A DNA stretch of 64,000 bases from Dysidea avara (Eukaryota; Porifera; Demospongiae; Dictyoceratida; Dysideidae), in the NCBI RefSeq assembly GCF_963678975.1, contig NC_089275.1:38168819-38232818 (forward strand), read 5' to 3'. Each line of letters begins with the position of its first letter. Within the stretch, counting starts at the first letter, position 1. This document shows positions 18,717-56,547 of the stretch, in pieces. A program made the translations under genes and the position numbers. Under the pieces are notes generated by a model. It was not told the origin of the DNA and made no database searches. It was given only the letters and a program-made list of their open reading frames with translations.

Positions 18717-18961
18717 TTACACATACGTTGTAACTGAATCATCATAGATGTTTAATTTCAATGGAGCAGTGTCTGGTTTAATGAGCACAGCTTCGTAACG
18801 TTCTTGAATTCTTCTTTTACACCCATACCGTATTAGCAGTAGAGTGAGCACGGTGATACAGATGACTGCAACGAGTGATGTTATCACTATACCAACTACA
18901 TGTCCATCATCAGGATCACCAAATTGAACTGTGGTAGGTGATGATGACGCTAATGTTGCTT
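18717..18961 (-). CDS. Frizzled-domain single-pass membrane protein, last exon (TM and cytoplasmic tail)
   Basis: The exon follows an acceptor (TTCCAATTAG) and begins AA, completing a Glu codon with the G left by the exon ending at 22395. It encodes a short stalk (LEATLASSSPTTVQFGDP), one hydrophobic helix (VVGIVITSLVAVICITVLTL), a basic stop-transfer RYGCKRRIQERYE and a tail of about 30 residues. The tail ends DDSVTTYV, where T-Y-V fits a class I PDZ ligand. There is no second hydrophobic segment before the stop, so this is not a seven-helix Frizzled receptor, and the KTxxxW Dishevelled-binding motif is absent. The intron to the previous exon is 3.4 kb and full of transposons. Confidence 0.75.
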
Positions 18962-19487
18962 CTAATTGGAAAATGATTGAATGAATCACACACACGCGCA
19001 CGCACGCATACGGACACACGCATGCGCGCATGCACACACACACACACAGAGGTAAAAATCATGTCTCTAACTTGTACAAGGCTAACTACTTTTGGACGCA
19101 GCTTAATCTATATACCAAATGTTCCAATTTTGTTTTGTTATTTTAATAAGGCTTATAATCAACACAATTGGCATTTGCCAAAATGTTGTTAGCTAAAACC
19201 TAGTGAGTCGAATGATCACCAAATTTTTCTTCTGTGTACCTGTATGTGCATGTACGGTACATGTTGTTGTGATTGAATACTACCAATATAATGAACAATC
19301 TTCTTGCCAAATGGTCTACTCAATAGTGAGGTGCACTGTAACATATAAATTATGTACATGCTCATAAATATGAAACCAAACAGCTTTTTTTTGTATGCAT
19401 GCTACACTGAGAAATGCTTTTGGCATAAGAAATGCATACATACAGTACTATTATGCAATACTGAAATCACAATAGTAATACAATTAT
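18962..19487. repeat. Intron sequence with CA-rich microsatellite
   Basis: A degenerate (CA/CG)n run lies at about 18989-19048. The rest, to 19487, is intronic sequence of the Frizzled-domain gene with no visible exon. Open frames made of Thr-His or Cys-Val repeats here are microsatellite artefacts. Confidence 0.6.
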
Positions 19488-20163
19488 CAAGACACATGGT
19501 AGTGTGTTGTGCGGCCCAAGAAGCCGGCGCACAACACCCATGAGTATATTGACAGGAAGAATGAAAACGCAATTTTCGCACCTCCGTAGCTCTGTGCTGC
19601 CTTGATGAAACACAACACTTTTGCTGTGGACACACCCGCTAACTTCAGTATCCCACATACCAAATTTGAGCAAAATCGCCTCAGGCATTCCCGAGATATG
19701 CAACTTCATAAATTGGCTTAGTTTCTTCTCTTTTTTTCTTATTATTTTTCTTCCTCTTTTTGCACACTTACAAAAACTGCTATAAAACGCGAACGCTATA
19801 TCGGATTGCCTTGAAATTTTGCACACAGAAGGGGGGTATAACGGTGCATCTCGGTACCAACTTTGGCTGGAATACAATAAATAGGCAAAGAGTTATTAGC
19901 GATTATTCACGAAAAATAACATCAATATGTTGTCACGCCTACAGGGTAAACCGCTTATGGGAAGAAGCTGAAAATCGGTGGGTGAATAGGTTAACTATTG
20001 AACCTCAAACCTTTTGTGGTTTGAAAGAAATCGAGCTAAAAACCAGGAAGATACAACAAAAAAAAACAACAGTGTGTAACAATTATGCAATCGAGATTAG
20101 CTAATAAAAAACTACTACTTGTCACGCCTACCAGAAAAACCGCTTGGGGTAATGCTTTGAAAA

Positions 20164-20950
20164 TTGCTGTACAGATGGAGTAATCATCTTAGAAAGGCTG
20201 TTCAGTGGTGTAGAAGAATCAGACATGGGCTTCAAAAGCATTTACCAGAAGTTTTTAAACTTTATGCTGACCTTCCAGGTTATCTTGCCAGTGTCAGCCC
20301 TCCTAGCACTATCCCCACCGAACTTTCTACCTCCCTTAGCAGACCTGACTTGGTCTTGGTTTCTAAGGATTCCATCTACCTATTTGAGCTGACCGTTCCC
20401 ACTAATACCCAGCAACACTTATTGGCTGCATTGGCTGCAAGAGCTTGGAAGGAAGATAGATATGGCTCTTTACTGTATGATCTTCAATGCACTGGATTAG
20501 TTGTTGGTCTCATTTCTATCGAGATAGGATGTCTGGGTCACTTTATGCCAGAAACACTTGCTCAAGTGGCTACTGCTTGTTGTGTGTCAAAGAAAACTGT
20601 CTGGTCACTGTTTGAGCAGGCTGCTCGTATTGCAACTCCTGCTATTACAGAATTTTCATTTCTAGAGCTTCCCCTAAGTGGGGTCTATTGGACTTCCTGA
20701 CCTGAACCTTGTTACTTTGTAGTTATAATTTTGTACTGTAAGTTAAGTAATGTAAGTCTTGCCAGGGCTCCTGCACTGATCACTCTGGCTATCAGTGTAC
20801 GTAACCCTGAGTCTAGGCCGCTGTTTGTATACTATATTGTCTTAATGATCAATAAGATGTTATCATCATCATTAAAGCCACGGAGTTATAACACGAAATC
20901 CAACTTGGCGTAGCAAGTGCAAGATCGAGATACTCTAATAGAGCAGTCAT
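20164..20950 (+). mobile_element. LINE-encoded C-terminal nuclease-like domain fragment
   Basis: An open frame of about 178 codons reads RIRHGLQKHLPEVFKLYADL, LPGYLASVSPPSTIP, SLSRPDLVLVSKDSIYLFEL, IEIGCLGHFMPETL and ARIATPAITEFSF, with a stop at 20698-20700. RPDLVL followed by YLFELTVP resembles the D and E positions of a PD-(D/E)xK nuclease fold; in this repeat family the segment lies downstream of reverse transcriptase. A decayed copy is at 9300-9960. The GATCGAGATACTCTAATAG motif follows at about 20924. Confidence 0.7.
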
Positions 20951-20964
20951 CCTAATAGAGCACT

Positions 20965-21495
20965 AACCCTGAAGAGAATTTAAGAGATCAGCTAGAAACA
21001 AGTAACCTGTATAGAGATCAGCTAGAAACAAATCACCCTGTAGAGAGTTCAGTAACAAACAATTCACTCTGTAGATAGATCAGCTAGAAGAAGTTATCTT
21101 GTAGGGAGTTCAACTACAGAAAGAGATAGTTCAGCTAGAATAAGTCACCTTGTAGAGAGTTCAGCTACAAACAATTCACCCTGTACAGAGATCAGCTAGA
21201 AGAAGTTACCTTGTAGAGAGTTCAGCTACAAACAAATAACCCTGTAGAAAGATCAGCTAGAAGAAGTCACCTTGTAGAGAGTTCAGTTACAAAGAAACCA
21301 CCATGTAGAGAGTTCAGCTACAAACTAGTGACCCTGTAGAGACATCAGCTAGAAGAAGTTACCCTCAAGAGAGTTCAGCTACAAAGAAACTATCATGTAG
21401 AGAGTTCAACTACAAACAAGTGACCCTGTAGAGACATCAGCTAGAAGAAGTAACCTTGTAGAGTGTTCAGTTACAAAGAAACCACCATGTAGATA
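20965..21495 (+). repeat. Minisatellite (GATCAGCTAGAAGAAGT / GTTCAGCTACAAACAA)
   Basis: About 530 bp of imperfect tandem repeats alternating GATCAGCTAGAAGAAGT and GTTCAGCTACAAACAA halves separated by ACCCTGTAGAGA-like linkers, a higher-order unit of roughly 70-75 bp. The units vary in sequence and length, so the array is not recent. The regular spacing is not CRISPR-like. Confidence 0.85.
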
Positions 21496-21680
21496 ATTCT
21501 GTAATAAATATACGCATTATATGTGTAATTTGTACATTTACTGATTAGAAATATTTAAAGTGTTTAACATCTGCTTCATCTTTTCTTCTTTCTGTGGTAA
21601 AGAAAAAATATAGGTTTAAAAAGTCCCAAAGCTGGTCCTAGGCCGGCTTTGGGGTATACAAATACAAAACGAAGTGAAAT

Positions 21681-22004
21681 CTAATCCAAAACAGCCAAGC
21701 TGTAAAAAAGAGTGCGGCCCTCAAAAAGGCTATGGTGAAAAAAGATGTGAAATCCAAGGTGGCAGCCAAGAAATGGCTGTGATGGTAGGTTAATGGTAAA
21801 AATTTTAATAAAGAAAATTCAGGTAAATTTTGTGCCAAGACCAAGCAGTACCAAAATTCACTGGAATTGTCGTTACTAAAATTTTTACCATTAACTTACC
21901 ATCACAGCCATTTCTTGGCCGCTACCTTGGATTTCACATCTTTTTTCACTATAGCCTTTTTGAGGGCCGCACTCCTTTTTTACAGCTTGGCTGTTTTGGA
22001 TTAG
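21681..22004. mobile_element. Foldback (CTAATCCAAAACAGCCAAGC), copy 1
   Basis: 324 bp near-palindrome. The arms run CTAATCCAAAACAGCCAAGC through GCGGCCCTCAAAAAGG and AAATCCAAGGTGGCAGCC to TTAATGGTAAAAATTTTA, then return as the reverse complement after a short centre near 21840. Copy 2 is at 29558-29867. Confidence 0.85.
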
Positions 22005-22159
22005 GTATTAGTAATCAATTATATACTTACTGTATTCTTGAAAGTCTTCTGCAAACAGTTCTTCTATAAAAAAGAAACAGTATGCCACTTATGCAGTATG
22101 TACCTTACACATAGCTCCTCTTTCACACAATTTCTGTATCCATATACACCGTACATTTA

Positions 22160-22225
22160 CATACATGTGAGTAAATGCACACACACACACAAACACACAC
22201 ACACACACACAAACACACAGATTGT
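22160..22225 (+). repeat. (CA)n microsatellite
   Basis: CA repeats with interspersed AAACACAC at about 22176-22219, with a second short run at about 22350-22366 next to the splice donor of the Frizzled-domain exon. Intronic. Confidence 0.8.
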
Positions 22226-22394
22226 TTATGCACGTACACCCTAACACTTGGTAGTAAAACATGTGTTAATTAAATTCAATGCATCACCATGCAGTAACCA
22301 ATTTTACATGCTATTAACAGGCATGATGTATTTTATGGACAACTAATACACACACACACACACATATGCATGCACAAACACGACACACACATAC

Positions 22395-22786
22395 CTAGCT
22401 TGTCAAGTGCAAAACAATTTGAGGAAAAATTTGTTGTTCTGAGGTACACAGATGGATGCCTACAATCAAGACTGCCCAGATCTCGTGACAGTGAATTATT
22501 GATCTTCAAAACAAGCCGAAACTCATCTGGACAAAAATACTCTCTTATAGCATCAATCAGTTCACAATTGTCCATACAGGCTGGCTCAGGAAGGGAATTA
22601 GAACAAGGAACAAATGCAAAATAACATGCAGAAAATGATAATGTTGCTCTGCAGCGGTCGTCAGTGAATAAAACATTTTCCAGAAGCTCTTTTAGGTCTT
22701 TGAAATCTTGCACTCTTGATGACGGTGGAAAAAACTTAGTATTCCTCAGTATATCAGCACATCCTGATGGAGTACCATTGACACAC
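22395..22786 (-). CDS. Frizzled-type cysteine-rich domain exon
   Basis: This 392-base exon has an acceptor CTCTATTTGTAG|GTGTGT and a donor AAGCTAG|GTATGT. It is phase-compatible on both sides. The 130 codons encode exactly ten cysteines in the spacing of a Frizzled CRD: CVNG, GCADIL, RCRATLSFSAC, FVPC, PACMDNC, EYFCPDEF, LDCRHP and SSNCFAL. In animals this domain binds Wnt lipids or acts in secreted and single-pass proteins such as sFRP, ROR, MuSK and collagen XVIII. It splices straight into the membrane exon at 18717-18961 without a kinase, netrin or seven-helix region, so the product is predicted as FZ-TM-short tail. Wnt binding is not shown. Confidence 0.85.
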
Positions 22787-23116
22787 CTACAAATAGAGGA
22801 GATAATAATAAGTCATATGAATGCATGCACACATGCATGCACGCACTCACCCACACACACACTTTACAACCGCACACGCCTCTTCACCGTTTGTCTGGAG
22901 ATATCCCAACCTTTCATGGGAGCATTTATTTATTACTGAGTAACCCATATTCACAAGTTTCAAATTTAGGTCAGGTAATAGGTCCCGGACAGTCCACAGA
23001 CAATAGCAGGGACCCGAGCCAAGTACCTGGTTCAGTTATGTCCAAATGCAATTGCATTAGAATAACATAGGGTGCAAGCATGATGTGTGCATTGTTGTTG
23101 AACTATAGCAAGGGCC

Positions 23117-23487
23117 CCTTTATAGAGGATATGTGCTAACTTACGATTGAAATAAAAACATGATGTTTAATCCTTACGTCATGACAGTACACAAATAAAT
23201 TGTAGGTATGGCATAGAAAGTGTGAATTGCAAAAGGTAGACCAGTTACAAGAGTTTCTCCAGAGAGATAGATTCCTTTACATGTATAACAGCGTCACTGA
23301 AAGGAGGAGCCCCTTCCATAGTACATGTGGCAAGTTATAGTCCGAGCTGCATTTGCTACCCGTACTTTTGTATGGGACTCACGATAGTCATTCACCATCA
23401 AAAATTCTTGGGCACACCACTAATATTATATTGATCATTTTTTTGTTCAATAATAATAATAATAATTTGCGCATATCCTCTATTCCA
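23117..23487. mobile_element. MITE (ATAGAGGATATGTGC ends)
   Basis: About 370 bp with short inverted ends, ATAGAGGATATGTGC on the left and GCGCATATCCTCTAT on the right. An interior TACTTTTGTATGGGACT is shared with 49447-49732, which has related ends, so both belong to one superfamily. Intronic in the Frizzled-domain gene. Confidence 0.6.
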
Positions 23488-23636
23488 TCACATCATGGTC
23501 AGTGACTACCTTGGACACAAGCACACACACACATTATCTGGTGTGTTTAACAGAGCCAAGACTTAAGCATAGGAGATCCCAGATATACACAAGTTTAGAA
23601 AAAAGTATGATGAAAGTTTATTAGAAAATTTTACCA

Positions 23637-23659
23637 CATATATATATATATATATATAT
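23637..23659. repeat. (TA)n microsatellite
   Basis: A pure TA run of about 23 bases in the first intron of the Frizzled-domain gene. Confidence 0.9.
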
Positions 23660-23801
23660 CTTTTATGCCTGCATGAAAAAGAAACACATGGCAGGGTTAC
23701 TAAATTCCTATTAATCTGTGGTCTAGCCTGTGGTAATTGTTTACCACATTCATCAAACAAAAATCAGCAAAGCCAAAAATGAAACATTACTGTTAACTTA
23801 C

Positions 23802-23887
23802 TTTCTGGACAAGATAAACGTCACTGGTACTTGATCACTGTGTGGTACTGACACAATAAATAAAACCAATGCTAGCACTCGCAGTTT
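23802..23887 (-). CDS. Frizzled-domain protein, signal-peptide exon (5' boundary unresolved)
   Basis: The exon ends at a strong donor (AGAAA|GTAAGT, 23802/23801) whose phase joins exactly to the cysteine-rich exon, giving ...ILSRK|CVNG. It encodes LRVLALVLFIVSVPHSDQVP, a hydrophobic stretch followed by a small-polar segment as expected for a signal peptide with cleavage after about HS. No in-frame ATG is visible before an upstream stop near 23945. The start may be in an unseen upstream exon, at a non-ATG codon, or lost. The sequence just upstream is purine-rich and not a convincing acceptor. Confidence 0.55.
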
Positions 23888-24849: not shown

Positions 24850-26640
24850 ACTGGTCTGATCCAGCCTTTAAACTAATAGGATATCGATTGCCTTCCATGT
24901 AAATAAATAGCTTTATCAAAAAATAGGGTTCCAAAGGACTTTTTCACCTTCTAAAATCACTTAGTACATGTGCTACAAACCCCATAAGAAATTTGGTGCT
25001 TTTATCAAAAAGTGAAAGTTTTTATGGCTTAGCATAGGCGCTGACTATTACTATTTACCCTGGGAATGCATCCTGAGAATGACTTTAATTGTGACAGATC
25101 CCCACATGCTGTCAGAAAAAAATTTGAACAAAATCATTGTGTTTCCAAGACACGCATTAATTGGCTACTGCCAAATCTGGGCGGTAGAAACGATTTGGTA
25201 TCTATATTTCACCAGACCCTTACTTTTTTGTGAAGGGGCAGACGGCGACAGACTACCAGAAAAGATGTCTGTTATAGTAGCATGATAGTGTACCTATCCA
25301 CTAGTGGTATCACTTTGATTTTGCCTGATGTGCGATTTGGATCAGTTTTTGTAAAATTTGGTCACATAAGACAGGTGTAACAAGAAGGCGTGGCACTATA
25401 TTACATCATGTGCAATCCAGATTTATGTAGGGAAAATTGTTTCTGCACAATGCAGTACTGCATCAAGTAATCACTACCCGAAATACAAACCTTGTAGTCA
25501 TACTTTAGCAATACTTGGGATTTGTTGAAAAAGAATAACGAGGTGACTTTTCTGTACAGGTGGATTATGAATAAAACATTTAAATTACCTCCTAAAAACT
25601 TGCTTTAGCATCTGAAAAGTAACTTGGTTTACCGTGCCTGAGTTTATTAATGGTTTTAGTCCTCAAACTACCCATTTTATCGCTGCTTGGTTGAGAAGTA
25701 CCAATTGACATTGTATTTCTTTTGCCCCACAAAAATGGCTGGGAAGCTGTCTGTGGATCAAGTCACCGCCTGGACTGGGATTTTTTTCTACATTCAGCAT
25801 AGTTTTCAGTTACAGGTTTCTGACTCTCTGCTTCACAGACTTACTGTTAACCTCCTTGCAGGTCCCTAGAGGGACAGTTGTCCAATGAATAAATAAATAA
25901 GTAATTTGCGTATGCGGCGCATTCTTATGACCACACCTCTTCGTCTAATTTACTTAGTCAATTTCTTAGAAGCTGAATAAATCTCTAAATACACTACATA
26001 AATTAGTAAGGACCAAGTGGTAAAAGGCCTACGAACGAGACGTGTACGAATCTCATTACAAATAGGACAATATATCGCGCCTACGGCACGCCCCCCCCCC
26101 CCCCCCCCATCCCAAACAAAAACAACGTCACAAATGATTTGTACAAACGACAGGCACATACGACTTCTTACTCAGTTTGCACTTGAAATATCGTAGCTAA
26201 TATGAACAAACTTAGCAGTAGCACACGAGAGTTATAGGCCACCGACGTCCTCGTTAACACCATGGCTCCTCAAACAACACGCAAAATTAATACCGCCGCG
26301 TATACCACAATCGAATTGGCTAATACTGTGTTGAGTGTGGAGCGTTATGTTTAACCACTGCCATTCCTTCTACACAGTATTAAGTATTCATTGCGTTGAT
26401 GATCATGATAAAATTGATGATGTAGTAGCTATCCCAGTAGCTTTCTACCGTGTGTCTACCTTGATTCGTGGGGCCATGGCCCAAGTAGGCCAGCGGCTGG
26501 GTGGGTCAGGAGCATGGGACATGGCCCACCAGCCTGGAGATGCTTCTATGATCGAGATGCTCCATTAGAACAGTCATGTATTCTATTAAAGCAGTCAGGC
26601 GCTGGTCTGCTAGCTTTGGATTAGCCAACAAATATAATAT
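24850..26640. other. Mostly gene-free, with transposon ends
   Basis: About 25255-25370 matches 63180-63335 (shared AGAAAAGATGTCTGTTA, TTTGATTTTGCCTGATGTG and TTTGGTCACATA), so it is the right end of a TGTGACC-type element. Near 25840-25905 CTTGCAGGTCCCTAGAGGG followed by AATAAATAAATAAG looks like a LINE 3' tail. A C-run is at about 26090-26108. A copy of GATCGAGATGCTCCATTAG is near 26551. No host exon is recognised. Confidence 0.5.
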
Positions 26641-43779: not shown

Positions 43780-45138
43780 CTACGTATGTCTGCTAACATG
43801 TGGGTAAGGTTCACTGGCCATGTCATATAACTCCGATAACAACTTCTCAAGGAATTGAACATCTATCCCTGCTTCTTTTAGTGGCTGAAGGTAGTGTCGC
43901 AAGCCTCTAATAAGCTGGAGAACTGATACTTCTCCTTTTGGAAAAATTAAACAAACAGCTTCTATTACATGGAGAGCTATTGTGATGAAAAAGTTTCTTT
44001 CCTTTAAATGTGTTTTATCATAAGCTACTTGCATGGAAGCTGCAGAGTAAAGCATTGCACACAAGACACCATCATTTAAGTGCTCACTGAACAGGTGTAC
44101 CTTAATATTCAACATTAGGTTTTGTAGTATAAATAGCACTGTCTGTGATTTAAGCCATCTGTCAATTTCTGGATGTGGTAAAGGCTTAGAACCATGGTTA
44201 TAAAGACTCCACAGTAGCCCATGCCTATTGGAATCTGTCACATCTGTTTTAGAGACATTGACCATATGCAGTGTTGGATTCATTTTACCAAATTGCAGTC
44301 TGTGTTTCTTTTGGTTGTATGTTACAATCAGTGTTGAGAAGCTAAAACAATAGTCTTTAATTTCTTCCATTGCTTGTTGGATAGCAAACTGTCCCTTACA
44401 GTTATGCTGTGCTAGATAATGTAGCAAGAAGAAGGTAAAAATTGAATGACCTAATGCATCAATTGACATGCACCTTTCTCTAGGTGCACAACCACACATT
44501 ACAAACACATCTGATGTTGCTTGAAAATTACTGGGGGATGATGTTAAACTGATGCCGAGATCTCCTGCATAGCAGCAGTCAAAAATGAATAATGAATAAC
44601 TAGCTTGGCATTGTGCTTCATGTAGCCATTTCACTAGATCATTTCCAGAAATACCCGAATTAGGTTTGTTGGTTCCAACAAAATCTGACGGAGCTAAAAC
44701 ACATTTTCTATCAATTGAATATCCATGACCAGCAAAATAAAATATAAAAATGCTGTTTTGTTCAGCTTTTCTGGCGACTTCCATGAACAAGCTACAGATA
44801 CCAGCTCTGCTGCACTGGTCTGGTTGAGCAGATGGGGTGCATACCTTAACACGTTCTTCACTCAATCCCAAGTTAGTGACAAATGCCTTTCCCATATCTT
44901 CAGCATCCTTAGTAACAATACTCCCGAGTGATTTATCCTCATAAAACTTATTAAACTGTTTATCTATTCCAATGCAGAGAGCAACGCCTTTGTTGTGGTC
45001 GAACTTCAGCACATCGTGTGGTGAGGAGATCATTGCGTATTGCTCTGAGTAATCCGGCTCGTCGATAGACGAAGATGATGAATGATCCGGTGAACTCTTA
45101 CATGGGTCTACCCAAACCTTACTCCAAAGTAGTTCCAT
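43780..45138 (-). CDS. Caspase-fold (C14) peptidase, metacaspase/orthocaspase-like, paralogue 1
   Basis: An intronless frame of 452 codons. Residues 1-30 start MELLWSKVWVDP and end in a Ser-rich linker. Residues about 48-270 form a C14 p20-like domain: KGVALCIGID (strand 1), FIFYFAGHGY with catalytic His about 138, and FDCCYAGDLG with catalytic Cys about 189. FVMCGCA and GHSIFTFFLLHYL follow. The DCCYAG form matches metacaspases and bacterial orthocaspases rather than the QACxG of animal caspases; such enzymes usually cleave after Arg/Lys (family knowledge). The C-terminal 150 residues (EHLNDGVLCAMLYSAAS, LQLIRGLRHY) are conserved in paralogue 2 but unknown to me. No death-fold prodomain or membrane segment is seen. 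The ATG is the first in frame and matches paralogue 2. Confidence 0.85.
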   Translation of the reverse strand: MELLWSKVWVDPCKSSPDHSSSSSIDEPDYSEQYAMISSPHDVLKFDHNKGVALCIGIDKQFNKFYEDKSLGSIVTKDAEDMGKAFVTNLGLSEERVKVCTPSAQPDQCSRAGICSLFMEVARKAEQNSIFIFYFAGHGYSIDRKCVLAPSDFVGTNKPNSGISGNDLVKWLHEAQCQASYSLFIFDCCYAGDLGISLTSSPSNFQATSDVFVMCGCAPRERCMSIDALGHSIFTFFLLHYLAQHNCKGQFAIQQAMEEIKDYCFSFSTLIVTYNQKKHRLQFGKMNPTLHMVNVSKTDVTDSNRHGLLWSLYNHGSKPLPHPEIDRWLKSQTVLFILQNLMLNIKVHLFSEHLNDGVLCAMLYSAASMQVAYDKTHLKERNFFITIALHVIEAVCLIFPKGEVSVLQLIRGLRHYLQPLKEAGIDVQFLEKLLSELYDMASEPYPHVSRHT

Positions 45139-45358
45139 CCGTTCTTGCGACGTTTTTTAGTTACGTTATGAATTCATCGGCGACACAGGAATGTGCGTCA
45201 GTTAATTGGGGCGTGGCCATCGCGCACGTCTAGTCTCCGCGCAGACGCATCATGACCGTTGCCTCAGTAACCACTTGTGCATAGTGATCGTTCAGGTTGA
45301 TAAGTACTTATCTAAAGTGAGGAAGTTAGTTACAAATTAAAGAAGGAGGGACCGAGGG
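45139..45358. other. 5' flank of caspase-like paralogue 1
   Basis: CpG-richer than its surroundings (around CATCGCGCACGTCTAGTCTC), consistent with a promoter. No specific element can be called. Confidence 0.35.
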
Positions 45359-54024: not shown

Positions 54025-54972
54025 GGAATTTTCAACTAGAGTAGGGACCATAGCACATCGATAAAAAGTACTGAAACAAGTTGGAGTAGTCCATCATATT
54101 AAATCACAGTAAAACAATAAGAAGTGTTATATCCCTACTGTGCTCCAAGATACCATAATGGAAACACACAGTAGAGATATAACACTTCTTATTGTTATTA
54201 CTGTGATTTAATATCATGCACTACTCCAGCTTGTTTCAGTACTTTTTATCAAAGTGCTATGGTTCCTATTCTAGTTGAAAATTCTAAAGTTTTTTTTGTG
54301 TACTTGTTTGTTAACTTTTTTTGTAGATAATTATTATGACTAAACCAACGCATACTGCATCTGAAATGGTGCCGTGTGCCCCAATTATATCAATTATCAT
54401 CTGAAAAGTAGAGTATCTATATGTTCAACCTGTTACACAACATTTCAAATCAAGAACTGTTTGAAAAACACCTCAGTAGTCAAAATAGCCACTATGAAAA
54501 ATTTAGATGATTTCCGTTATGAAGGGTAGCCATCATGTGCTACCGCCAAATTGACACTTTTCGCTGTAAGCAAAGATGAATGGGACACAAAGGAGGACAC
54601 TGGTAAGTTCATGAAGAATGCATTGTACATACTGTGGTATGCCAAAAGGCACATCTCAGGCCGAAGTGACGTCAAACAGTGAAAAAATCAAGCCCGTAGC
54701 CTTAGCTTTTACTGAGTTATGCTTGTCTGAAGGCATCAGTTACTCAGTCAGTTAGTCAGTAGAAAATTCCATTAAATAATTTTTTAAAATTCTGTAGCAA
54801 CTTGTTGAAAGCATTCCGGGTTGGTCTGAAAGCTTGTTTGGGCTTAGTTTTATCTAACCAATACTGCATCACCGTTGTCAAGGAAAATTGAGGCTGGTTT
54901 TTGGGTGATATTATTTCGTGGGCCATGCCTACTACTTTGTGGTCCCTACTATACAGTACTATCGCACTGTAT
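54025..54972 (+). repeat. Composite dispersed repeat, copy 3
   Basis: The foldback at 54025-54284 is followed by the same middle and far end as 35603-36765. It lies at the 3' end of the second caspase-like gene, and that gene's open frame runs about 20 bases into it before stopping. Confidence 0.7.
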
Positions 54973-56547
54973 GATCATGGGGCAATCCTGGGAAGTGATG
55001 TGAACAGAAACTTCAGTAATGGTAGTTAGCACTATATTATGCGTCTGTGTTATGTCTACTTTGCCACATATTAAATTTTGTTTACTAGGATTGTTGCATA
55101 CCTTATTTATGGCACCATTTTGAACTGGTCCATCAACCTCATCCCCATCACTCATATCATCTTGGGTAACATAAGGACTAGACTTGCTGATGGCTAGATT
55201 AGGCTCCTCAGCAATCTTACACATATCTGAGAGTAGCTTATTGAGAGACTGATTATCTAATCCTGCGTTAAACACCGGCCCATTATAATGCTGCAACCCA
55301 TCAATCAGCTGGAGAATCGATATGTTTACTTCAGGATAAGCAAACCCGATAGCCCCTACTACACTGATGGCTAATGTAACAAATAGATTCCTCTCATTTA
55401 CATGTGTTTTATCATTTGCCACTTGAATAGAAGCCACAGAGTAGAGCATGGCGCAAAGAACACCATCTTGTAATTGCTCATTAAATGATGCTTTTACCTT
55501 CAGCAGCTGTAGGGAGTTTCGTACTCTTTGAGAATTTAGCCACTCATCAACTTTAAAATGTGGTGAAGATTTAAGTGACTTATCATAGAGACTTATCAGT
55601 AATCCGAGTCTACTGGAATCTGTTTCATCACTGTTTAGGTCAACAACCTTAAAATCTAGTCTATCCAGTGTTGGGGTCATTGTACCAGAAAGCAGATCAC
55701 CTGTTTCGTGGTTGTATTTCACAAGTAATGATGAGAAACTCATACACAACTCTGCAATTTCCTCCATTGCTTTTGTAATGGGAAACTGTCCCTTGCAGTT
55801 TTGCCGTTCTAGATACCTCAGAAAGAAATAAGTAAAGATTGAATGACCCAAGGCATCAATTGACATACACTTTTCTCTAGCCGCACACCCACACATCACA
55901 AACACGCCTGGTGTCACCTTCAAAATGTTACCAGGGGACGTTAAATTAGTGCCAAGATCTCCAGCAAAACAACAATCCAAGATGATGAGCACATGCTTAG
56001 CTTTGCAGCCAGCTGCATGTAGCCACTCCACAAGATCATCCCCAGATACTCCTGTATTGAGATCCTCCACTCCAGCAAAATCTGCAGGAGCTAAAACACA
56101 TTGTTTTCTAACTAAATATCCATGGCCAGCAAAGTAGAATATAAAAATGCTGTTTTCCTCAGCTTTTCTTGCGGTTTGCATGAATGAGGAACGGATACCG
56201 GCTTTGCTGCATTGGTCAGGTTGGGCTAAGGATGTGTACACTTTGACGCGTTCTCGATGAATCCCAAACTTGGTGACAAACGCTTCTCCCATGTCTTTAG
56301 CATCGTTTGCGACAGTCACACCAAGCGACTTGCTCTGGTATTCCTTATGATACTGCTTGTCTATTCCAATGCAGAGAGCAACGCCCTTATTGTGATCGAA
56401 ATCCAGTACATCGTGTGGCGAAGTGATCAGTGCGTATTGTTCGTCAGTGACAGGAAGTGGCTGTGATGAATTTGACGTGATCTGTGATAGAAGGTTGGGG
56501 ATCTCCGCAAAGGGGTTAGTCCAAATATGATTCCACAGCAACTCCAT
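54949..56547 (-). CDS. Caspase-fold (C14) peptidase, metacaspase/orthocaspase-like, paralogue 2
   Basis: A frame of 532 codons, colinear with 43780-45138. The start MELLWNHIWTNPF matches the paralogue. The peptidase domain has KGVALCIGID, FYFAGHGY (His about 142) and LDCCFAGDLG (Cys about 193). The shared C-terminal region contains LQDGVLCAMLYSVAS and ILQLIDGLQHY. An acidic extension (DDMSDGDEVDGPVQNGAINK) is present only here. A strong splice donor (AATAAG|GTATGC, 55102/55101, phase 0) follows GAINK, so the last 50 or so codons, which run into a repeat, are probably intron and a further exon may lie downstream. All catalytic residues are present, so activity is plausible. Substrates and regulation are unknown. 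Confidence 0.85.
   Translation of the reverse strand: MELLWNHIWTNPFAEIPNLLSQITSNSSQPLPVTDEQYALITSPHDVLDFDHNKGVALCIGIDKQYHKEYQSKSLGVTVANDAKDMGEAFVTKFGIHRERVKVYTSLAQPDQCSKAGIRSSFMQTARKAEENSIFIFYFAGHGYLVRKQCVLAPADFAGVEDLNTGVSGDDLVEWLHAAGCKAKHVLIILDCCFAGDLGTNLTSPGNILKVTPGVFVMCGCAAREKCMSIDALGHSIFTYFFLRYLERQNCKGQFPITKAMEEIAELCMSFSSLLVKYNHETGDLLSGTMTPTLDRLDFKVVDLNSDETDSSRLGLLISLYDKSLKSSPHFKVDEWLNSQRVRNSLQLLKVKASFNEQLQDGVLCAMLYSVASIQVANDKTHVNERNLFVTLAISVVGAIGFAYPEVNISILQLIDGLQHYNGPVFNAGLDNQSLNKLLSDMCKIAEEPNLAISKSSPYVTQDDMSDGDEVDGPVQNGAINKVCNNPSKQNLICGKVDITQTHNIVLTTITEVSVHITSQDCPMIIQCDSTV

Follow-up and report, generated by a model that had tools for sequence, protein, structure and literature searches.

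A putative kinase-less single-pass receptor with a divergent Frizzled-type domain, present as a tandem pair in the sponge Dysidea avara

ROR and MuSK are single-pass receptors with an extracellular Frizzled-type cysteine-rich domain (CRD), and work on ROR-like receptors provides the closest described parallels to the gene considered here. The CRD and membrane helix of C. elegans CAM-1 are alone essential in cell migration (work cited by PMC11219042), and CAM-1 is reported to have partial activity without its kinase and none without its CRD, with Wnt sequestering having been proposed for it (PMC2920835). CRD-FZ domains are said in PMC8662651 to predate the Ror and MuSK kinase motifs, those kinase families being placed in Bilateria. 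Amongst sponges, three full-length Frizzled G protein-coupled receptors are given for Amphimedon in PMC4302439, and a study of sponge SFRP (PMC6386478) required the absence of a membrane helix and lists some receptor tyrosine kinases amongst the CRD-bearing proteins. In the literature searched, which most subscription journals fall outside, we found no description of a single-pass CRD receptor without a kinase from a sponge. Here we describe such a candidate in a 64,000-nucleotide (nt) stretch of the Dysidea avara genome (the window; RefSeq GCF_963678975.1, NC_089275.1, positions 38,168,819 to 38,232,818), which lies on contig C4 of the 550.8 Mb, 108-contig genome searched. The window holds a minus-strand gene which likely has five exons and encodes a 268 amino acid (aa) protein ending in DSMML; this would be a type I membrane protein with a signal peptide, one divergent Frizzled-type CRD and a short stalk, followed by a single helix and a tail of roughly 50 residues.

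The gene model was corrected by comparison of two tandem copies, the paralog lying just outside the window (C4:38153290–38161916) with its CRD at C4:38161087–38161476 (76% identity, E = 5.8e-61). An earlier note on this DNA had joined three minus-strand exons in phase, of which the CRD exon, the start of the last exon and the phases stand, whereas its first exon and the end of its last exon do not, and two exons had been missed (Table 1). Upstream sequence of the paralog matches window positions 26240–26013 and exposes the first exon, in which 18 of 29 aligned codons are the same and which is closed by GTAAGA in phase 2 in both copies; the first exon proposed earlier was rejected, as it lacks an in-frame ATG downstream of the stop that precedes it and has no counterpart within the paralog intron 1 (353 nt). 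Exon 3, whose flanking AG and GTAAGT are kept in the paralog, may be alternatively spliced. Exon 4 has the same codon in both copies at 65 of 77 positions and contains a hydrophobic segment with a Kyte-Doolittle maximum of 2.9. Apart from the signal peptide the model has no other helix, in agreement with the single membrane helix noted earlier. The cytoplasmic tail has conserved tyrosines in IYDD and SDYTDV, the latter being in line with generic tyrosine-based endocytosis or SH2-binding motifs, which are common by chance. It should be noted that exons 1, 3, 4 and 5 are checked by one tandem paralog only. Three- and four-exon models ending in TTYV are superseded by the five-exon comparison of both copies.

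The two predicted proteins, of 268 and 267 aa, are the same at 204 of 266 aligned residues, and both copies are intact, their frames having no stops or frameshifts and their splice sites and ten cysteines being retained. The ratio of non-synonymous to synonymous divergence (Ka/Ks) for the five-exon pair is 0.39 (Fisher p = 1.4e-6). When the exon 4 peptide was searched against the genome, it matched seven places, of which one is its own, one is the paralog (E = 4e-39) and the other five have E ≥ 0.03. Two genes make up the duplication unit, the CRD gene being accompanied by a short-chain dehydrogenase; the dehydrogenase copies, at window 39110–30830 and on the upstream side of the paralog (window 488 to about -4786), are 85–94% identical in the pieces compared. 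Synonymous divergence (Ks) is low over the helix and tail at 18961–18717 (about 0.12, using the older model) versus about 0.4 in exons 1–2 (Fisher p = 0.002, with the boundaries set afterwards), and it is possible that part of exon 4 has been homogenised between the copies by gene conversion.

The CRD has the ten cysteines described in the earlier note, and these are invariant in all seven aligned CRDs (seven chosen out of ten genome matches to the window CRD, three being omitted). We compared it with 20 further single or kinase-linked CRD exons, picked and cut by hand from homology matches and from 73 genome matches to the Pfam Fz family, and with seven Frizzled or multi-CRD domains; near copies C8:7824577 and C7:13594652, plus most of the 73 Fz matches, were left out of these sets. 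The core spacing C3-x8-C4-x6-C5 with C6-x3-C7 is kept throughout (3/3 in the clade containing the window CRD, 20/20 and 7/7, respectively), while C6-x3-C7 occurs in 0/5 of a further group which we refer to as C13-type CRDs, and exactly ten cysteines are present in 16 of the 20 as cut by hand.

Identification of the window CRD as Frizzled-type is weak when the domain is taken alone and good when made through its relatives. The profile of the seven aligned CRDs matches the Frizzled group (89.9%, E = 1.7e-6 over 60 columns), a bridge aided by one member, C10:21269070, which sits on the Frizzled side of our CRD tree, and only four PDB entries were matched by this profile at E ≤ 1 (ROR2, 6.1e-4; Ror2, 0.0053; FZD10, 0.31; FZD5, 0.66). 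Fz is likewise the best Pfam family for the other six members (E = 0.037 to 2.2e-6), all of which score below the Fz gathering cut-off of 32.1 bits. Several results for the domain on its own weigh against a Frizzled-type identity. Fz is the sole family match to the CRD exon (E = 0.0022) and the top match to a 253-aa four-exon model, with 18.9 and 16.9 bits, respectively, both under the cut-off, and the longer stop-to-stop frame of the exon (159 aa) has no Pfam match. A profile of the three closest CRDs had no match to the Frizzled group (3%), and a phmmer search of PDB with the window CRD returned no Frizzled-type chain and two chance matches to Synembryn-A. A hidden Markov model (HMM) of the seven Frizzled or multi-CRD domains gives the window CRD 4.4 bits, a score reached by 29 of 1500 shuffles and by 253 of 1500 in which the cysteines were fixed (42 and 331 of 2000, respectively, in a further control), and the single-sequence AlphaFold2 model of the fold has a mean predicted local distance difference test score of 44, which makes it unusable.

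The window CRD scores far higher with other CRDs in the same genome, and from these HMM scores we place it in a divergent set which includes kinase-linked CRDs, though it is not closest to those. An HMM of the 20 other CRDs gives it 36.9 bits, which is reached by none of 2000 shuffles (best 10.4) and none of 2000 cysteine-fixed shuffles (best 24.1). At least five of these CRDs (C7:12234019, C8:7771753, C8:7791284, C10:21290878 and C8:17190204) are followed by a kinase match on their own strand; the HMM of these five gives 29.4 bits and that of the 15 CRDs of unknown architecture 43.6 bits, neither being reached in 2000 shuffles of either kind, and the higher score of the latter counts against a particular closeness to the kinase-linked CRDs. 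The five C13-type CRDs give 10.6 bits (reached by 0 and 3 of 2000, respectively). A direct search of the genome with the window CRD, in which 12 candidates were scored, gave ten matches at E ≤ 10, comprising itself, the tandem paralog, C7:10803981 (29%, E = 4.2e-12) and seven weaker matches (E = 0.007 to 3.6), and no relatives were found in prokaryote and virus contig collections.

A phylogenetic tree of 35 CRDs grouped the window CRD with its paralog and C7:10803981 (95/93) and placed the Frizzled and multi-CRD domains in a separate group (98/97), with a further branch, starred in our tree (95/86), separating the window clade from the Frizzled side. The C13-type CRDs share the side of the window group, whose immediate neighbours the tree leaves unresolved, and this too limits what can be said for kinship with the kinase-linked CRDs; five end branches are long and 8 of 32 inner branches are unresolved. 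The spacing between C8 and C9 follows a similar division, with 22–23 residues in the window group and 19–28 in 19 of the 20 other CRDs (the twentieth has extra cysteines) versus 16 in all seven Frizzled and multi-CRD domains.

Searches around the window gene and its paralog brought up no kinase. Pfam scans of the three minus frames found nothing at 3–18 kb and only the last exon of the upstream short-chain dehydrogenase at 18–33 kb, so that no Kringle, immunoglobulin (Ig) or Frizzled seven-helix region was detected at 3–33 kb, in agreement with the earlier note that there are no seven helices, kinase or other ectodomains; these read-through scans did not report the Fz domain itself, and weak domains could escape them. 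Kringle and Ig domains were also absent between the conserved exons of the two copies. A tblastn search with two kinase domains over the 91.8 kb containing both copies had a best E of 3.9, compared with 9e-10 for recovery of the C7 kinase exon as a positive control, and a kinase-motif pattern run without a positive control had no match over the retrieved loci. A continuation of the gene into a seven-helix or kinase exon was rejected, no such exon having been found. Across the genome there are at least 151 kinase matches, with 135 of 2309 candidates scored, and absence from elsewhere on C4 is not implied.

The earlier note had the protein end in TTYV as a PDZ ligand, and it is here that the two-copy comparison changes the reading most. 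The codons ACA ACG TAT GTG TAA at the end of exon 4 enclose a donor, AC|GTATGT, which is kept in both copies and, counted by hand, agrees with the consensus at 7 of 9 positions, a level reached by 3.6% of GT sites. About 2.3 kb beyond exon 4, both copies have a conserved in-phase terminal exon, which encodes TTSDYTDVGTETDSMML before its stop in the window gene and AASDYTDVGTETDSVML in the paralog, the two ending in DSMML and DSVML, respectively. Because the donor overlaps the stop and this exon exists, TTYV and its stop codon are most likely read-through of a splice donor, that is, intron sequence, and the C-terminal S/T-x-hydrophobic ending of a PDZ ligand is absent from our best model. The exon 5 pair shows 5.0 synonymous changes over 12.2 sites and 3.0 non-synonymous over 41.8 (Ka/Ks 0.13, p = 0.0095). 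Its acceptor is by far the strongest (E = 6e-16, 53/55 nt) of 320 phase-2 candidates, all taken from the 15 kb following exon 4 and each leading into 15 or more open codons; the runner-up enters the same block from 45 nt upstream and is absent as an acceptor in the paralog, ten others give short or out-of-order matches (best E = 6e-10) and one further candidate is in order (41/55 nt at 79%, E = 5e-4). Amongst the loci retrieved, the exon 5 block is confined to the two copies.

A reading in which exon 4 is instead terminal, perhaps in a minor intron-retained form, and PDZ scaffolds anchor a protein with TTYV as its last residues is rather unlikely. In its favour, both copies keep the in-frame stop, similarity is still seen past the stop (75% over 79 nt, 65% over 215 nt), and a single open frame in the C8:7771753 gene spans helix, juxtamembrane region and kinase, which shows that a donor at this position is not general. 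Similarity beyond the intron 1 donor is comparable, however, and conservation of the 3' flank is thus not decisive; in both copies AATAAA and ATTAAA are absent up to 600 nt from the TAA, and in the membrane exon of the CRD-kinase gene C7:12234019, as in exon 4 of the window gene, a phase-2 donor lies exactly five residues plus two bases past Ile-Tyr. These points add to the overlapping donor and the terminal exon already described.

Table 1. Predicted exons of the CRD gene, with the superseded features, in window coordinates.
Feature	Position	Strand	Description
Exon 1	26263–26172	minus	ATG, signal-peptide-like MVLTRTSVAYNSRVLLLSLFILATIFQVQTE, phase-2 donor GTAAGA
Exon 2	22786–22395	minus	Ten-cysteine Frizzled-type CRD, GT donor at 22394
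Exon 3	22063–22031	minus	Symmetric, 33 nt, EELFAEDFQEY, membrane-proximal stalk
Exon 4	18961–18727	minus	Stalk, single membrane helix, start of tail; phase-2 donor AC|GTATGT
Exon 5	16461–16407	minus	End of tail, TTSDYTDVGTETDSMML then stop; unseen in the earlier note
Earlier TTYV stop	18726–18717	minus	GTATGTGTAA, now read as the start of an intron
Earlier exon 1	23887–23802	minus	Rejected

Set beside known receptors, the predicted protein resembles ROR and MuSK in overall plan, in having ROR2 as the best PDB match of the seven-CRD profile, and in its long C8–C9 segment (27 residues in the Ror2 chain 7me4, by hand count), and differs from them in the Kringle, Ig and tyrosine kinase domains, none of which were found, and in its short tail. 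Four of the CRD-kinases in the same genome (C7:12234019, C8:7771753, C8:7791284 and C10:21290878) have related CRDs, as the 29.4-bit score indicates, and in one of them the membrane exon has its donor at the matching place; unlike the window gene and its paralog, they have a kinase match downstream on the same strand. The likeness to Frizzled lies in the ten-cysteine CRD and its core spacing, and the difference in the missing seven-helix region and the low score against the Frizzled and multi-CRD domains of this genome. Like sFRP, the protein has a single CRD and a possible decoy role, but it would be membrane-anchored and no netrin domain was found. MFRP and Corin also cross the membrane once and carry Frizzled-type domains, but are type II proteins with further ectodomains (CUB, LDLa, protease), none of which were found in the window gene.

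Our tentative preference, held at somewhat short of probable, is for a kinase-less accessory or decoy receptor which would work like the laboratory construct mini-ROR2 or like CAM-1 without its intracellular part. At the cell surface, the CRD would bind a secreted ligand, Wnt or other, or else a partner receptor, and the bound protein would either help the Frizzleds or CRD-kinases of the same genome to signal or soak up their ligand; the ligand, the partners and the sign of the effect are inferred. The co-receptor or decoy role suggested in the earlier note is in this respect reasonable, given the laboratory parallels, with the function itself remaining inferred, while the Wnt-lipid binding it suggested is weakened by the grouping of the CRD with divergent single CRDs and not with Frizzled, and by the long C8–C9 segment. 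Three things count against an accessory role of this kind: mini-ROR2 retains a Kringle as well as the CRD (as described in PMC11219042), the vertebrate work covered there mostly indicated a need for the ROR intracellular domain, and the evidence for conservation of the window gene comes from two copies only. An origin from a CRD-kinase which lost its kinase is plausible from the sequences, but the fuller account in which the gene is a natural mini-ROR, with kinase exons lost, a new short tail gained and two copies selected to tune lineage-specific CRD-kinases, possibly with non-Wnt ligands, is unlikely as a whole. If this descent were true, the phase-2 donor, which matches in position the one leading to the kinase in a CRD-kinase gene, would be a trace of it; the open frame at C8:7771753 argues against the shared donor being general. 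The tail motif LIKPxxxPL recurs after the helix of the C8:7771753 gene, but 467 of 20000 shuffles reach as high a likeness between tail and juxtamembrane region before correction for five comparisons, and this is suggestive only.

Other explanations differ in what the CRD would bind, or whether it binds anything. A dedicated Wnt decoy, binding the Wnt palmitoleate as Frizzled does, is improbable: the CRD has the ten cysteines, the genome has 11 matches to the Wnt C-terminal exon, three of them on the same contig 0.9–1.3 Mb off, and the CRD of Nrk, a ROR relative, holds a fatty acid, but the ROR2 CRD has no lipid groove (both from section 6 of PMC11219042), the window CRD falls outside the Frizzled and multi-CRD grouping, and its C8–C9 spacing is that of the window group and not the 16 residues found in all seven members of that grouping. 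A little less doubtful is that the CRD belongs to a lineage-specific receptor set with a non-Wnt ligand, for example in self or microbe recognition, in which the kinase-less form modulates the kinase forms. The 73 Fz-family exon matches at E ≤ 1e-3 (several clustered, and the window CRD not included), the kinase-linked members on C7, C8 and C10, and the starred branch between the window clade and the Frizzled side are all consistent with this, while an immune role is conjecture. That the two copies are a decayed, non-functional pair remaining after kinase loss is very improbable; no kinase was found near either and part of exon 4 may be homogenised between them, but such decay sits poorly with open frames, retained splice sites and cysteines, and a Ka/Ks of 0.39 (p = 1.4e-6). 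We return, then, to the accessory or decoy receptor as our preferred, still tentative, reading.

Possible partners and ligands are present elsewhere in the genome, where we found 27 Wnt exon matches at E ≤ 1e-3 and part of a Frizzled seven-helix region (Pfam Frizzled, E = 7e-18). The Wnt exons cluster at C4:39.07–39.48 Mb, C13:5.32–5.50 Mb and C15:7.77–7.82 Mb, and several of the matches hold stop codons which may reflect intron read-through or decayed copies. Fz-type CRD exons are much expanded, the 73 places including clusters on C13, C7, C8 and C10. The C13-type CRDs have hydrophobic exons downstream, with no Pfam Frizzled match in the two segments tested, and single open frames with up to three consecutive CRD matches occur at C9:14.55–14.60 Mb and C11:16.55–16.61 Mb. 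At C6:17972001–17986000 (minus), a CRD relative at C6:17981970 is followed by what may be a membrane exon and by an acidic open frame of 213 aa, with no kinase motif by a pattern search lacking a positive control, and this is perhaps another kinase-less CRD receptor.

Within the window, intron 3 contains a minisatellite at 20983–21493 whose units measure about 61 and 92 nt, and a 179-aa open frame at 20161–20700 (plus) with a weak transposase-like helix-turn-helix match (E = 0.083) which is possibly a mobile-element remnant. An inverted repeat of about 90 nt was seen by eye near 21.7–22.0 kb, and two similar minus-strand frames at 43780–45156 and 54949–56547 match the caspase-type Peptidase_C14 family (E = 1.3e-14 and 4e-13, respectively).

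The practical lesson of this locus is that comparing tandem copies replaced one exon chosen by eye, shifted the end of another and added two. A further bearing is on the origin of ROR/MuSK-like receptors, the Ror and MuSK kinase families being placed in Bilateria by PMC8662651: at C8:17182801–17192000 (minus) we find an Fz CRD (E = 1.1e-5), a Kringle (E = 1.3e-22), a hydrophobic helix and a tyrosine kinase, an order which appears ROR/MuSK-like if, as we assume from order and strand, this is a single gene. The best PDB matches of that kinase are MuSK (4.6e-86), a chain labelled EGFR (4.7e-86) and Trk receptors, with ROR1 lower (8.6e-80). Finally, CRD action without a kinase is known for ROR2 and CAM-1 from engineered truncations or mutants, and a gene of its own of this kind, beside CRD-kinases and Wnts in the same sponge genome, would allow the natural role of a minimal CRD receptor to be studied.

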